Source of the DNA: an uncultured PS1 clade bacterium
Lineage (GTDB): Bacteria; Pseudomonadota; Alphaproteobacteria; MED-G09
Direction of reading: 5' to 3'
DNA: 40,840 nt
Assembly (NCBI GenBank): GCA_902537725.1
Contig: CACBCD010000008.1
Coordinates: 1-40,840, forward strand
Part shown: one piece after another, positions 20,261 to 34,278 of the stretch
Position numbering within the stretch: position 1 is the stretch's first letter
Layout of the letters: every line of letters begins with the position of its first letter
Made by a program: the position numbers and the translations under genes
Notes under the pieces: generated by a model
The model's input: only the letters and a program-made list of their open reading frames with translations
Told to the model about the DNA's origin: nothing
The model's database searches: none

Positions 20261-22675
20261 TTAAAATTTATAGTTTATTTTCAGACCAAAATTTCTGCCT
20301 GGTAAAGGTACTTCATTCTTAACAAAAGAAGAATGATTTCTAGCAACCTCATCAAGAAGATTTCTTCCAAGCAATGATAAACTTATTTCATTTAGATTAT
20401 TAAGAACAAAAGTTTTTCTTAGAGAAAAATCTAGCATTTCATAGGCTTCAGTCATTGTTTCGCCTTCACCTATGTCGTTTTGCTTCTCAACATCCTTATA
20501 AGTAAGTTTTGCAGAAAGGTTATCTTCAGAATAAGAAAGAGCAAGAATATTTCTTGCAGGCACAATCCTTGGAATATTCATTCCATTTTTAAATTCACCT
20601 GAAACTGAATCTCTTCCAAGAGATAAAGTGAGGTTTCCTCTATTAAAATTGAAAACTTGACTTACTTCAATCTCATAACCTTCTAACTCAGCATCTCTTT
20701 GAAGAAAGTTTGCAAGAATTAAACCACCATGATCGTCGTGATCACCATGTTCTTCATGTTCTTCATGTTCTTCTTCAGTTTCATCTTGTAGATAAATATA
20801 ATTATCAATATTATTTCTAAAAATATTACCTCTTAAAGAGAAATTATTGTTTTGATAATAGACATTCAAATCAATATTATTAGCTGTCTCGGACTCGAGA
20901 TTAGTATTACCAACCTCAAATCGACCAGTAACAAGGTGTGCTCCGTTCATAAATAATTCAACTGGAGCAGGTGCTCTTTCAACCATAGAAAGACCTAAAC
21001 TCAATGTTAAACCATCTGTAACATCGCGAGATAAATTAACAGCAAAACTTGTTTCACTGAAATCTTTATTGAAAAACTCTATCTCTTCCTCATGCTCATC
21101 TTCGTCATGATGTTCTTCTTCGTCATGATGTTCTTCTTCATCGTGATGTTCATCTTCGTCATGATGTTCTTCTTCGTCATGATGTTCCTCTTCATGAGCA
21201 ATTGAACCTTTTCTTGATATATCATCGTATCTGATACCAAAATCAAGATGAAATAAATCAAATTCTTTTGATAGGTAATATCCTACAGACATTTCTTCGT
21301 TATCTGTTGGTCTCATAAATGCTTCAGCACCAATAATGGATATTTCTTCCTCAACATAATTAATAGAAAGTTTTTGATCTGCAAAAGTATTTGAAATATC
21401 AAAAATAAATCCATACTCTTTTGATTTATTTTCAAAATTTGTTGGACCTTCTGCATGACCATGTTCATCATGTTCGTCTTCTTCATGCTCGTCTTCGTCA
21501 TGATGTTCGTCTTCATCATGATGGCCCTCCTCTTCAGCATGCTGTTCAGTATGAAGATAATCTGAAGATCTGAAAAAATAATCAATTTTTTTCAAAAATG
21601 AATTATTGATTAAATATGAGCCTTCAACATCAAAAATATCAGATTCTGTATTAGAGAAAATTCTTTCACCTTCATGCTCATCTTTAGCATGATGCTCTTC
21701 TTCATCGTGATGTTCTTCTTCGTCATGATGTTCTTCTTCGTTATGCATACCATGGCCTTCATCACCATGGCCTTCATGACCTTCACCATGAAAAGGAACT
21801 CCAAAAAGACTCTCAGAGTTTCTATATGAAAGACCAAAATATCCCCAATCACCTGTCTTTGAAATTCCAAATCTTTGAGTAGTTGACTCAAAATCAGAAT
21901 TTTCTAAGTACCCAAGATTTTCTTCGTCATGATGTTCATCTTCATCATGATGCTCGTCTTCGTCATGATGCTCGTCTTCGTCATGATGCTCGTCTTCGTC
22001 ATGATGTTCGTCTTCCATATGAATTATTGCACCATTAGGAATATCGTAATTATCAAATTGAGAATCCTTATACGCCAGACTTACATTAAAACCACCAAAA
22101 TTATTTTGATATGAAATACTTCCAGACTCTCCATCATTAACAGACTGGCCTTCAAGACCAATATTAAGTCTTGATTCTTTAAAATCTTCTCTAGCTATTG
22201 TATTATCAATTATATTAACAATGCCTCCAACAGTTCCACTAGAGTATAGTAAAGATGATGGTCCCCTGACTATTTCAACTTGTTGAATATCATTTAAATC
22301 TACCTCATTCATGTGATCATCACCAATAGTCGAAACATCTCTTAAGGTTTTACCATTATTCATAATTCTCACTCTATTACCTGATAAACCTCGAATTATG
22401 GGATGGCCCACTGCGGAACCAAAATCTGATGACTGAACACCAAGAAGGTTATCTAGTGACTCACCTAAGCTTAAAGTTGTATCAAAAACTGTATCATTAC
22501 CTTCAATAACATGAATAGGATCGTCAAGATCCGATAGATTTGTATCAATGTAAGACGAGGTAACAATTATCTCATCAGTTACATCTGAAGCATCAACTGC
22601 TTCATTTGCATACAAGATTTTACTGTGTATTGTTAGAGCGCACACAAGTAAAAGCGCTATAATTAAATTTTTCAA
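20261..22675 (-). CDS. ZnuD-like TonB-dependent outer membrane receptor with His-rich loops
   Basis: The 804-residue protein is a TonB-dependent receptor: a signal peptide (about 1-23), a plug domain, then a 22-strand beta barrel ending in a Phe (GLKINYKF). In the plug, DDHMNEVDLNDIQQVEIVRG and LLYSSGTVGGIVNIID resemble ZnuD zinc receptors. So does the C-terminal NLLDEVARNHSSFVKNEVPL. Five long insertions are almost pure His, Asp and Glu, built on the unit HHDEDE or HHDEEE, and are likely extracellular loops that collect zinc or another divalent metal. They swell the protein beyond the usual 700-750 residues. It is the last gene of the MerC operon, 34 nt after the small His-rich gene. Confidence 0.93.
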   Translation of the reverse strand: MKNLIIALLLVCALTIHSKILYANEAVDASDVTDEIIVTSSYIDTNLSDLDDPIHVIEGNDTVFDTTLSLGESLDNLLGVQSSDFGSAVGHPIIRGLSGNRVRIMNNGKTLRDVSTIGDDHMNEVDLNDIQQVEIVRGPSSLLYSSGTVGGIVNIIDNTIAREDFKESRLNIGLEGQSVNDGESGSISYQNNFGGFNVSLAYKDSQFDNYDIPNGAIIHMEDEHHDEDEHHDEDEHHDEDEHHDEDEHHDEENLGYLENSDFESTTQRFGISKTGDWGYFGLSYRNSESLFGVPFHGEGHEGHGDEGHGMHNEEEHHDEEEHHDEEEHHAKDEHEGERIFSNTESDIFDVEGSYLINNSFLKKIDYFFRSSDYLHTEQHAEEEGHHDEDEHHDEDEHEEDEHDEHGHAEGPTNFENKSKEYGFIFDISNTFADQKLSINYVEEEISIIGAEAFMRPTDNEEMSVGYYLSKEFDLFHLDFGIRYDDISRKGSIAHEEEHHDEEEHHDEDEHHDEEEHHDEEEHHDEDEHEEEIEFFNKDFSETSFAVNLSRDVTDGLTLSLGLSMVERAPAPVELFMNGAHLVTGRFEVGNTNLESETANNIDLNVYYQNNNFSLRGNIFRNNIDNYIYLQDETEEEHEEHEEHGDHDDHGGLILANFLQRDAELEGYEIEVSQVFNFNRGNLTLSLGRDSVSGEFKNGMNIPRIVPARNILALSYSEDNLSAKLTYKDVEKQNDIGEGETMTEAYEMLDFSLRKTFVLNNLNEISLSLLGRNLLDEVARNHSSFVKNEVPLPGRNFGLKINYKF
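20726..20790 (-). repeat. His/Glu-rich repeat segment 5 of the TonB receptor
   Basis: Short in-frame repeats of HEEHEEHGDHDD type in the last third of the barrel, the most C-terminal of five such segments. They are more diverged than segments 1 and 4. Confidence 0.7.
21082..21198 (-). repeat. His/Asp/Glu-rich repeat segment 4 of the TonB receptor
   Basis: Five to six in-frame 18-bp units encode HHDEEE or HHDEDE in tandem. The units differ mainly at third codon positions and at the D/E choice. Length could change by slippage in steps of six residues. Confidence 0.85.
21454..21552 (-). repeat. His/Asp/Glu-rich repeat segment 3 of the TonB receptor
   Basis: In-frame tandem repeats encode HHDEDEHHDEDEHEEDEHDE followed by HGH, inserted between two barrel strands. 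Confidence 0.8.
21669..21790 (-). repeat. His/Glu-rich repeat segment 2 of the TonB receptor
   Basis: This segment has two parts: a Gly/His part (HGEGHEGHGDEGHGMHN) and then three tandem EEEHHDE-type units. It is one loop of the receptor. Confidence 0.8.
21920..22020 (-). repeat. His/Asp-rich repeat segment 1 of the TonB receptor
   Basis: Five nearly identical 18-bp units encode HHDEDE in tandem, in the first extracellular loop region after the plug. Several neighbouring units are identical at the DNA level, so they look recently duplicated. Confidence 0.88.
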
Positions 22676-22709: not shown

Positions 22710-22991
22710 TTAAATTTCTGGAGGAGCTCTTGAATGAAAGTTTATAAAAAACTGAGGAGTGTAATTATCTAGATTTTTAAAATTATTAAAATCAGATAAA
22801 AATAGCTTTTCTAATTTAATATCAACATTATCATCAAATAAATCATTGATACAAAAGTGGCACTCTGCTTCAGAATGACTAATATCATGTTCTTCATGGT
22901 GGTGAGATTCAAATGAAGAAACAGATAAAAAGAAAATTCCAGTTAGAATAATTAAATATTTTTTATGGAATGGATTGATAAATCTATTCAT
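22710..22991 (-). CDS. Small exported His-rich protein (DUF2946-like)
   Basis: The 93-residue protein has a signal peptide or single helix (about 11-28), then a metal-binding patch HHHEEHDISH, a CHFC pair, and the C-terminal SRAPPEI tail typical of DUF2946-like proteins. It may hold or hand over zinc or copper in the periplasm. ATG 22991 overlaps the MerC-domain stop (ATGAATAG, 8 nt); an in-frame GTG at 23000 would be a longer start. The TonB receptor starts 34 nt downstream. The role as a metal shuttle is inferred from context. Confidence 0.75.
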   Translation of the reverse strand: MNRFINPFHKKYLIILTGIFFLSVSSFESHHHEEHDISHSEAECHFCINDLFDDNVDIKLEKLFLSDFNNFKNLDNYTPQFFINFHSRAPPEI

Positions 22992-23394
22992 GGCAATCAC
23001 ATTCTAAATGATCACAAAGTTTGTAATTTTTATAATGAGAAAATGTTATTAAAATGGAACCAATAATTGTTAACAAAATTTCTCCAGAAATAGTTTTTAT
23101 GGATAATTCTATAAATAATGCAGAAACCAAAATTGCCAGTCCACTTAAACCAATAAAAAATATAAAAGAATTTTTATGATTATTTAAACCAACTATTAAA
23201 GCAAAAGAACTTACAGGAACCACTAAAAATAAAAGCATATAATGAATTAATTCACTATTTAAACTCACGGATATAAAACTAGATAATAGAATCATAAATG
23301 AAGGAAATAAAAGACAATGTAATAAACAGAGTGCTGAAATACCGATTGATACTTTATCTGAAACCTTTTGTGCGTATATTAATTGTGCAAACAT
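22984..23394 (-). CDS. MerC-domain inner membrane protein
   Basis: The 136-residue protein has four membrane helices and the MerC-type cysteine pattern: ISALCLLHCLLFPSFM in helix 1 and a C-terminal KLCDHLECDCHE with extra metal-binding Cys, His and Asp. MerC proteins carry metal ions such as Hg2+ across the inner membrane. In metal-acquisition operons, MerC-domain proteins probably carry zinc. I chose the ATG at 23394; the longer reading runs through the tRNA-Glu gene and is not credible. It is the first protein-coding gene of a three-gene operon with the His-rich protein and the TonB receptor. Confidence 0.82.
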   Translation of the reverse strand: MFAQLIYAQKVSDKVSIGISALCLLHCLLFPSFMILLSSFISVSLNSELIHYMLLFLVVPVSSFALIVGLNNHKNSFIFFIGLSGLAILVSALFIELSIKTISGEILLTIIGSILITFSHYKNYKLCDHLECDCHE

Positions 23395-23417
23395 ATCCCA
23401 TTCAACCTTATAAAAAC

Positions 23418-23492
23418 TGGTAGTCCCTAGGGGAATCGAACCCCTCTTTCCAGGTTGAAAACCTGGCGTCCTAACCGATAGACGAAGGGACC
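23418..23492 (-). tRNA. tRNA-Glu (anticodon TTC)
   Basis: The minus strand gives a 75-nt cloverleaf with encoded CCA (23418-23420). The anticodon loop TTTTCAA reads TTC. The T arm GGGGTTCGATTCCCC is perfect. It lies between recJ (32 nt upstream) and the MerC-domain gene (23 nt downstream), all on the same strand. Confidence 0.97.
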
Positions 23493-23524
23493 ACAGTTTC
23501 ATAAGCTTATATAGGTGTAATTCA

Positions 23525-25309
23525 TTAAGCTGTAAAGAGGTCTCTGATATGAAATTGAACAGCTTTATTCCCTTGCCAATCATTTTTCTTTATAACGCCC
23601 GCAAAATGGATTAATGACCCTGAATGATTCATTATAATATCACCTAAAGGGGTGCCTTTTGAACCAAACGCAATTGCATCTATGTTACCATAGTTTGCAT
23701 TAGATATTTTAACCTTAAGATGCCCTTTTCCTACTTCTGACCAATAATCAATTTTTGCATTTTTAATAATAAACTGTGGCTCAGGATTGCCTTGTCCATA
23801 AGGTGATGCAACATTAATTAATTCATATAAATCTCTGTTAATAATGGAAGAATCAATAATCTCATCATAATAACTTATCTTATTTAATGATGTACTATTC
23901 GATTGTAAATAAACCTCCTCATCACAAAAATCTTTAAAACTTTCGAAAGTATTATGGTTAAGAGAAAATCCTGCAGCCATTTTATGTCCACCACCTGAAA
24001 GGAGTAACTTTTTATTAACCCCCTTAATAATAAGCTTACCAACATCTATTCCTGAAATTGATCTTGCAGATCCGGTTAACTTTCCCTCAATATCACTAAT
24101 TACAAAAGATGGTCTATAGTACTTATCCTTAATTCTACTTGCTACAATCCCCAAAACACCCAAATGCCAGTTTTCCCCTATAGCAATTAATGAATTAGGG
24201 AAGGTATTTAATTTTTTATTAGAGATATTGTCTTCAATATTATTAACAGCCTCAAAAAGAACAGTCTCTTCTATATTTTGGCGCTGTTTATTAAGATTAT
24301 TCAATCTTTCAGAAATAGCTAAAACTTCATCTTCACTATCTGAGGTTAATAATCTAAAACCAAGATCTGAAGCCCCAGTTCTACCAGCTGCATTTATCCT
24401 AGGCCCTATCCTATAACCTAACTCAGTAACACCAATATCTTTTGAACCAGAAATAGATTTTAAAGCTTCAATGCCTAATCGAGAATTTCTTGATATTACT
24501 CCAATTCCCTCTTTGACAAAGGCCCTATTAAGCCCCTTTAATTGAACAACATCACAAACTGTTCCGAGAGCAACTAAATCTAAATATTGTTTTAAAGAAG
24601 GTTCTTTAATATCTGGAAAAATATTTTTATCTCTTATAGCTCTTCTTAATCCAACTATAAAAATAAAAGTTAGCCCTACTGCCGCTAGATCATTTAAACC
24701 TGAGCTATCCTCTTCTCTCGAAGGGTTGATATGCGCGTAAGATACTGGAAGATCACTATCCACCTTATGATGGTCAATTATTATAGGATTCATTCCTTTT
24801 GATTGAGCATAAATCATAGGCTCAATAGAGGTTGCACCGCAATCAACTGTTATAAAAGTATCAATACCTTGATTAGAAAAAAAATCTATTGCTAATTTAT
24901 TAGGACCATACCCCTCTTTTAATCGGTCTGGAATATATATTTCTGTTTGTATATTATAATGATCAAAAAATAATTTTAATATGGAAGAAGATGTAGCACC
25001 ATCCACATCATAATCACCCAATATACCAATTCTCTTTTTTTTTGACATACAATCCGAAATAAAATCAACACCTTTATCAAGATCATATAATTTGCTTGGG
25101 TCTAAAATTAATTTATTAACCTCAGGATTTAAAAAAGAATTCACTTCTGAAGAATTCACATCTCTTCCTGCAAGAATTTTAGCTAATAATTTAGGAATAT
25201 TATTTTCTTTTTGAATAATCGATACTTTTTCTAAATCTGATACTCTTTCTTTCCAAAGAGAACCTTTAGCAGAAAATTTATTTTCTAAAAAAAACCCATT
25301 ATTATGCAT
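23525..25309 (-). CDS. recJ: Single-stranded-DNA-specific 5'-3' exonuclease RecJ
   Basis: The 594-residue enzyme degrades single-stranded DNA 5' to 3' in recombination and mismatch repair. DHH phosphoesterase motifs are clear: LGDYDVDGATSS, TVDCGATS and IIDHHKVDSDLPVSYAHINP. The DHHA1 motif LLSGGGHKMAAGFSL follows, then the C-terminal OB-like domain (YGQGNPEPQFIIKNA). Length is typical. It starts 5 nt after glpX, so glpX and recJ are in one operon. The recJ-glpX-hom order is a known alphaproteobacterial arrangement. Confidence 0.97.
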   Translation of the reverse strand: MHNNGFFLENKFSAKGSLWKERVSDLEKVSIIQKENNIPKLLAKILAGRDVNSSEVNSFLNPEVNKLILDPSKLYDLDKGVDFISDCMSKKKRIGILGDYDVDGATSSSILKLFFDHYNIQTEIYIPDRLKEGYGPNKLAIDFFSNQGIDTFITVDCGATSIEPMIYAQSKGMNPIIIDHHKVDSDLPVSYAHINPSREEDSSGLNDLAAVGLTFIFIVGLRRAIRDKNIFPDIKEPSLKQYLDLVALGTVCDVVQLKGLNRAFVKEGIGVISRNSRLGIEALKSISGSKDIGVTELGYRIGPRINAAGRTGASDLGFRLLTSDSEDEVLAISERLNNLNKQRQNIEETVLFEAVNNIEDNISNKKLNTFPNSLIAIGENWHLGVLGIVASRIKDKYYRPSFVISDIEGKLTGSARSISGIDVGKLIIKGVNKKLLLSGGGHKMAAGFSLNHNTFESFKDFCDEEVYLQSNSTSLNKISYYDEIIDSSIINRDLYELINVASPYGQGNPEPQFIIKNAKIDYWSEVGKGHLKVKISNANYGNIDAIAFGSKGTPLGDIIMNHSGSLIHFAGVIKKNDWQGNKAVQFHIRDLFTA

Positions 25310-33588: not shown

Positions 33589-34278
33589 ATGTACAACATA
33601 GCATCTACCGACTACGTCGGTATTTCCTTTTGGCTCGTTTCTGCAGCAATGTTAGCTGCGACAGCTTTTTTCTTTTTAGAGAGGAGTTCTGTTAACGGTA
33701 AATGGAAAACATCATTAACTGTTGCTGGTTTAGTAACAGGTATAGCATTCTGGCATTATTTATATATGAGAGGAATGTGGATAGAAACAGGAACATCACC
33801 AACAGTTTATAGATACATTGATTGGTTGTTAACTGTTCCTCTCCAAGTTGTTGAGTTTTATCTTATTCTTGCAGCTGTAACAACAGTTAGAGGCGGTGTA
33901 TTTTTCAAATTATTAATTGGTTCACTTGTGATGCTTATAGCTGGTTACCTTGGTGAAGCTGGTCTTGCGCCTGTTCTTCCTGCCTTTGTAATTGGTTGTG
34001 CTGCTTGGCTATATATAATTTATGAAATCTTTGCAGGTGAAACATCTAAAATAAATGCTGCTAGTGGCAATGTAGCTTCTCAAACAGCATTTTCTGCAAT
34101 GAAATGGATTTTAACAGTTGGTTGGGTAATTTATCCAGTTGGATACTATCTTGGTTATTTAGGTAGCGGAGTTGACGCTAATAGCCTAAACCTTGTTTAT
34201 AATTTAGCTGATTTTGTTAATAAAATATTATTTGGTCTTGTAATTTTTGTTGCTGCATCGAGAGATTCAAACGCATAG
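33589..34278 (+). CDS. Proteorhodopsin, blue-absorbing type light-driven proton pump
   Basis: The 229-residue seven-helix protein uses retinal to pump protons out of the cell with light. The proton acceptor D78 and donor E89 lie in RYIDWLLTVPLQVVEFYLI, the counterion-pairing His H56 in FWHYLYMRG, and the retinal-binding Lys K212 in NLADFVNKILFG. The spectral-tuning residue is Q86 (position 105 in the SAR86 protein), where Gln gives blue absorption and Leu green. The D/E pair marks a proton pump rather than a sodium or chloride pump or a sensor. It lacks the N-terminal signal found in some relatives. A GGGAGGT ribosome-binding site and a 3' terminator frame it as a single gene. Carotenoid and Blh genes for retinal are not nearby. 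Confidence 0.98.
   Translation: MYNIASTDYVGISFWLVSAAMLAATAFFFLERSSVNGKWKTSLTVAGLVTGIAFWHYLYMRGMWIETGTSPTVYRYIDWLLTVPLQVVEFYLILAAVTTVRGGVFFKLLIGSLVMLIAGYLGEAGLAPVLPAFVIGCAAWLYIIYEIFAGETSKINAASGNVASQTAFSAMKWILTVGWVIYPVGYYLGYLGSGVDANSLNLVYNLADFVNKILFGLVIFVAASRDSNA

Follow-up and report, generated by a model that had tools for sequence, protein, structure and literature searches.

A ZnuD-like receptor gene and its neighbors

The window analyzed here is a stretch of 40,840 nucleotides of contig CACBCD010000008.1 from an uncultured bacterium of the PS1 clade (Alphaproteobacteria). It contains a group of three genes encoding a TonB-dependent receptor, a small secreted-type protein and a MerC-family protein (Table 1). 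An earlier note on this DNA had placed the receptor ORF at 20261-22675, and these boundaries were confirmed (804 aa, minus strand). The start codon is TTG in the window, and either TTG or ATG in the relatives.

Table 1. Features of the receptor locus, with positions in the window
Feature	Position	Strand	Evidence
Loop E, aa 636-649, predicted extracellular L8; EEH triplets, 9-bp unit, no hexad	20729..20770	minus	
H580, equivalent of ZnuD His499 zinc ligand	20936..20938	minus	4rdr alignment
Loop D, aa 495-528, predicted extracellular L6; five HH units	21092..21193	minus	
Loop C, aa 384-408, predicted extracellular L4; two full HH units and degenerate copies	21452..21526	minus	
E377, equivalent of ZnuD Glu340 zinc ligand	21545..21547	minus	4rdr alignment
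Loop B, aa 298-335, predicted extracellular L3; three HH units; at ZnuD loop 3 position	21671..21784	minus	
Loop A, aa 220-252, predicted extracellular L2; five HH units, 18-bp repeats	21920..22018	minus	
Plug domain, aa 51-152	22220..22525	minus	Pfam
D120-H121, equivalents of ZnuD Asp99/His100 zinc ligands	22313..22318	minus	4rdr alignment
ZnuD-like TonB-dependent receptor gene, 804 aa, TTG start	20261..22675	minus	Pfam, profile, Foldseek
Small secreted-type protein, His and ECxxC motifs, C-terminal SRAPP	22710..23000	minus	Iterated profile search of flanks
MerC-family inner-membrane protein	22984..23583	minus	Pfam PF03203 3.3e-23
tRNA-Glu, immediately upstream of the MerC-small protein-receptor group	23418..23492	minus	

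Pfam recognized both the Plug domain (8.5e-17) and the TonB barrel (1.3e-26) in the receptor, and the combination of a Plug with a 22-strand beta-barrel that characterizes TonB-dependent receptors was recovered by Pfam, the AlphaFold model and Foldseek. The nearest solved structure is ZnuD by sequence, by profile and by fold. PDB 4rdr (ZnuD) was matched at 6.7e-40 with the single sequence and at 2.3e-110 with the profile, and Foldseek with the receptor model ranked ZnuD at the top (4.6e-43) and OprC next (9.5e-31). On the NCBIfam ZnuD model NF038289, a narrow model of the exception type, the receptor scored 199.7 bits against a cut-off of 950. Because this score is far under the cut-off, the receptor is designated here as ZnuD-like, not as ZnuD proper.

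The buried zinc ligands of ZnuD are Asp99, His100, Glu340 and His499 (PMC4557270). In the profile alignment to 4rdr, read in the chain numbering of that entry (offset 14), they align with D120, H121, E377 and H580 of the window receptor. Asp, His, Glu and His occupy these positions in all 72 aligned homologues. The kinship with ZnuD suggested in the earlier note is thus borne out by sequence, fold and aligned zinc ligands. The identity of a heme receptor was also considered and rejected; the pocket residues and the fold favor ZnuD.

The small-protein gene is located directly upstream of the receptor gene in the window and in most of about 60 loci from alpha- and gammaproteobacteria. Members of this family have a signal peptide, histidines, an ECxxC motif and a C-terminal SRAPP or SRGPP. 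The small protein matched no Pfam family at the gathering score. At loose Pfam thresholds, one relative gave a weak match to DUF2946 (E 0.2), and another gave a weak cytochrome match.

The true start of MerC is probably internal to the ORF in Table 1, at about 23400. MerC is upstream of the small-protein gene in the window and in the PS1 loci L012, L013, L014 and L017. It immediately follows the receptor gene in L053, L055, L056 and L057, and lies close to it in L035, L041 and L048. In L015, MerC is absent, and only an apparent 3' end of tRNA-Glu is seen upstream of the small gene, as if there had been an insertion at, or a rearrangement of, the tRNA site. Elsewhere in the window, an ORF at 33589-34278 resembles proteorhodopsin, as judged by eye.

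Tandem repeats in the predicted extracellular loops

The structure of the receptor was modeled by AlphaFold2 with 72 homologues, resulting in a 22-strand barrel (pTM 0.78). Loops A, B, C, D and E come after strands 3, 5, 7, 11 and 15 of the model. Since these are odd strands and strand 1 rises from the periplasm, all five loops are predicted to be extracellular. Strand parity in the AlphaFold model thus agrees with the extracellular position expected in the earlier note. The pLDDT is below 50 in loops A-D and in part of loop E. The low-confidence segments are 220-251, 297-336, 382-408, 496-529 and 643-647, together with the N-terminal region 13-52. Low confidence in the loops would be as expected for disordered repeats.

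Loops A, B, C and D contain tandem 18-bp units encoding HHDE(D/E)E, in the numbers given in Table 1. Tandem Repeats Finder reported 18-bp arrays at 21092-21195, 21465-21523, 21674-21745 and 21921-22015, and a 9-bp array at 20746-20773. The claim that HHDEDE/HHDEEE units are present in five loops is therefore correct for four of them, while the fifth, loop E, contains EEH triplets with a 9-bp unit. The copies had also been described as near-identical. Identity at the 18-bp offset is 94% in loop A and 88% in loop D, to which this description applies, and lower in loops B (85%) and C (76%).

Perfect 18-bp periodicity extends over up to 44 bp, while 1000 whole-codon shuffles reached at most 13. 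Synonymous-codon shuffles that preserve the protein gave a mean of 25 (P = 0.033). The 18-bp periodicity of the receptor gene is not due to chance. In the genome containing the window, matches to a degenerate unit pattern are confined to the receptor gene. Matches are present in 12 of the 18 genomes of the family, clustered at one place in each, while the reversed control pattern had no match in any of the 18.

Copy-number variation among PS1 orthologues

The receptor was compared among about 12 orthologues from the PS1/OCS116 clade, most of them from draft single-cell genomes or metagenome-assembled genomes (MAGs). Loop A is 21, 27 or 33 aa long in most of them, and loop D is either 23, 29 or 35 aa, or 28 or 34 aa. 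Loop B follows the same one-unit (6-aa) progression, and in some orthologues it carries one or two additional residues. The arrays are more degenerate in L013, L014 and L015. In the loop-masked alignment of 12 orthologues, gaps are observed only at the N-terminus and at the unmasked loop A of L014 and L015, and none in the barrel.

Close pairs differ in whole units. Outside the loops, the receptors L019 and L020 share 99.4% identity at the protein level and 98.9% at the DNA level, while they are 12 aa (two units) apart in loop B and 6 aa (one unit) apart in loop D. L021 and L022 are 97.4% identical outside the loops, and loops A and D are each 6 aa (one unit) apart. These whole-unit differences between close relatives classify the arrays as variable-number tandem repeats, and the copy number is not constant, as the earlier note had foreseen. 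The flanks of L019 and L020 are only 75-96% identical, with 75-90% in some parts, in comparison with the roughly 99% of the receptor. Therefore, the receptor gene seems to have been recently exchanged by recombination, and the arrays seem, from these sequences, to have changed after the exchange.

Adjacent copies share synonymous codons above expectation in L021, L022 and L023 (0 of 1000 shuffles), with a weak excess in L018 and L012 and no significant excess in the window (P 0.24). This codon pattern fits turnover by whole units, and slippage and unequal recombination would explain it equally well. Of the proposed six-residue steps by slippage, the steps are thus supported, while slippage is indistinguishable here from unequal recombination.

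Short repeats may collapse or expand during assembly, and the predominance of draft single-cell genomes and MAGs makes this relevant. However, the arrays span only about 75-115 bp, and typical short reads are longer than this. The differences preserve the reading frame, most of them amount to whole multiples of 18 bp, and the repeat copies carry their own codon pattern in each genome. Assembly artefact is rejected as the main cause of the copy-number differences on these grounds, and it is very unlikely to account even for a part of them.

Phages commonly target the extracellular loops of outer-membrane receptors. The free variation of loop length among close relatives could thus reflect drift or selection by phages or bacteriocins, and serve no metal capture. 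Against this, the loops stay overwhelmingly His/Asp/Glu and only their length and unit number change. Because evasion is expected to alter the sequence as well, this constancy of composition makes such an origin of the variation quite improbable.

Distribution and origin of the receptor

The same five loops are rich in His/Asp/Glu in the receptors of SAR86, SAR92/Porticoccaceae and Halieaceae, and their lengths vary. The window receptor has 49 loop histidines, and the maximum among the gammaproteobacterial relatives is 55 (L033). The statement in the earlier note that these repeats far exceed those of Neisseria ZnuD is fair with respect to ZnuD, but the marine gammaproteobacterial relatives are comparably rich in histidine at these loops. 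The regular hexad repeat is thus what distinguishes PS1. In the 25 closest pairs listed among the relatives outside PS1, there are zero gap residues outside the loops.

In the maximum-likelihood tree, the PS1 receptor is placed inside the marine gammaproteobacterial clade, beside L070 and L071 (98/97 support), and the other sampled alphaproteobacterial ZnuD-like proteins are far from it. Because of this branching position, the simplest reading is that the PS1 receptor was probably acquired horizontally from marine Gammaproteobacteria. L055, a contig titled Bacteroidota from a Crocinitomicaceae MAG, also encodes a receptor that falls within this clade, and is probably mis-binned.

Zinc import and regulation

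No match to the ZnuA, ZnuB or ZIP families was found in the 18 genomes of the PS1 family, six of which are at least 90% complete, while controls were detected. MerC is encoded in 12 of the 18 genomes and is absent from the near-complete genome G007; thus, MerC is not the sole inner-membrane route in G007. MerC is known as a mercury transporter. A literature search for MerC in connection with zinc uptake returned only a review on mercury tolerance. It can be tentatively proposed, as a rather unlikely scenario, that the tunable receptor, the small Cys/His protein and MerC replace ZnuABC/ZIP in the PS1 family, with MerC carrying zinc across the inner membrane and the number of units setting the capture capacity.

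The more complete genomes of the family usually encode two Fur-family proteins. Zur-box-like sites were found upstream of the receptor in five of nine loci of distant relatives, where 0.04 matches would be expected, and related palindromes recur in SAR86. The scan upstream of the receptor in the window and the other PS1 loci revealed no convincing site.

These observations bear on the identity of the metal. The receptor might take nickel, cobalt, copper or a metal complex instead of zinc, with the loops as a generic net for divalent metals. The His/acid repeats are not specific to zinc, the copper receptor OprC is the second structural neighbor, and the PS1 family has neither a Zur-box-like site in the loci scanned nor a detected ZnuABC. 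On the other hand, ZnuD is closer than any other solved structure by a clear margin, its Asp/His/Glu/His ligands are invariant among the homologues, and distant relatives do have Zur-box-like sites upstream. A metal other than zinc is therefore considered unlikely.

Putative function of the repeat loops

It is quite likely that the receptor is a ZnuD-like transporter with a repeat-tunable extracellular net for the capture of a divalent metal, most likely zinc. The basis of this interpretation is the kinship with ZnuD, the conserved ligands, the predicted placement of the loops, the stepwise copy number and the lack of indels in the rest of the receptor alignment. By analogy with ZnuD loop 3, the five disordered His/Asp/Glu loops would surround the barrel mouth as a net which gathers metal ions with low affinity. 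The metal, presumably zinc, would then be handed to the conserved buried site of D120, H121, E377 and H580, and TonB would drive it inward. The number of units would change by in-frame gain or loss of whole units, through slippage or unequal recombination. Because whole in-frame units are gained or lost, the number of binding sites could change quickly while the barrel is undisturbed. Evolution may thus have adjusted the size of the metal-catching net, with the transporter itself untouched, and loop length may then have adaptive value.

If the loops bind zinc, these receptors of widespread ocean bacteria would represent a natural series in which a single conserved transporter bears extracellular metal-binding arrays of different lengths. 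The tuning of nutrient capture by repeat copy number could then be addressed directly; such questions are usually studied in pathogen antigens and phase variation. The adjacent MerC and the missing ZnuABC/ZIP would likewise be relevant to zinc import in streamlined marine bacteria.

Comparison with known systems

The literature search found no paper that combines ZnuD with bacterioplankton, none on repeat-expanded ZnuD loops among the papers listed, and no functional study of the receptors from SAR86, SAR92/Porticoccaceae and Halieaceae. OprC, the second-best fold match, shows 13% identity and is clearly weaker than ZnuD. In Caulobacter, ZnuK and ZnuL are TonB-dependent receptors regulated by Zur (PMC4176598); by description only, they resemble the window receptor as alphaproteobacterial TonB-dependent receptors linked to zinc.

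The ZnuD-like receptors of SAR86, SAR92/Porticoccaceae and Halieaceae (L024-L086) show about 44-62% identity, have the His/acid loops at the same sites and are usually accompanied by the same small upstream gene. They differ in having 0-7 regular hexads, in contrast to 2-14 in PS1, and in their irregular length steps.

ZnuD from Neisseria meningitidis (PDB 4rdr, 4rdt, and 4rvw) has in common with the window receptor the Plug, the 22-strand barrel and the Asp/His/Glu/His ligands, although the identity in the structural alignment is 21-22%. The loops of ZnuD were described as a fishing net, and its loop 3 contains two His/acid clusters, one of which has cadmium sites in the crystal (PMC4557270). 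Loop B of the window receptor aligns at this position. Both clusters of ZnuD are in loop 3, whereas the window receptor has five rich loops, four of which contain the variable 18-bp repeat.
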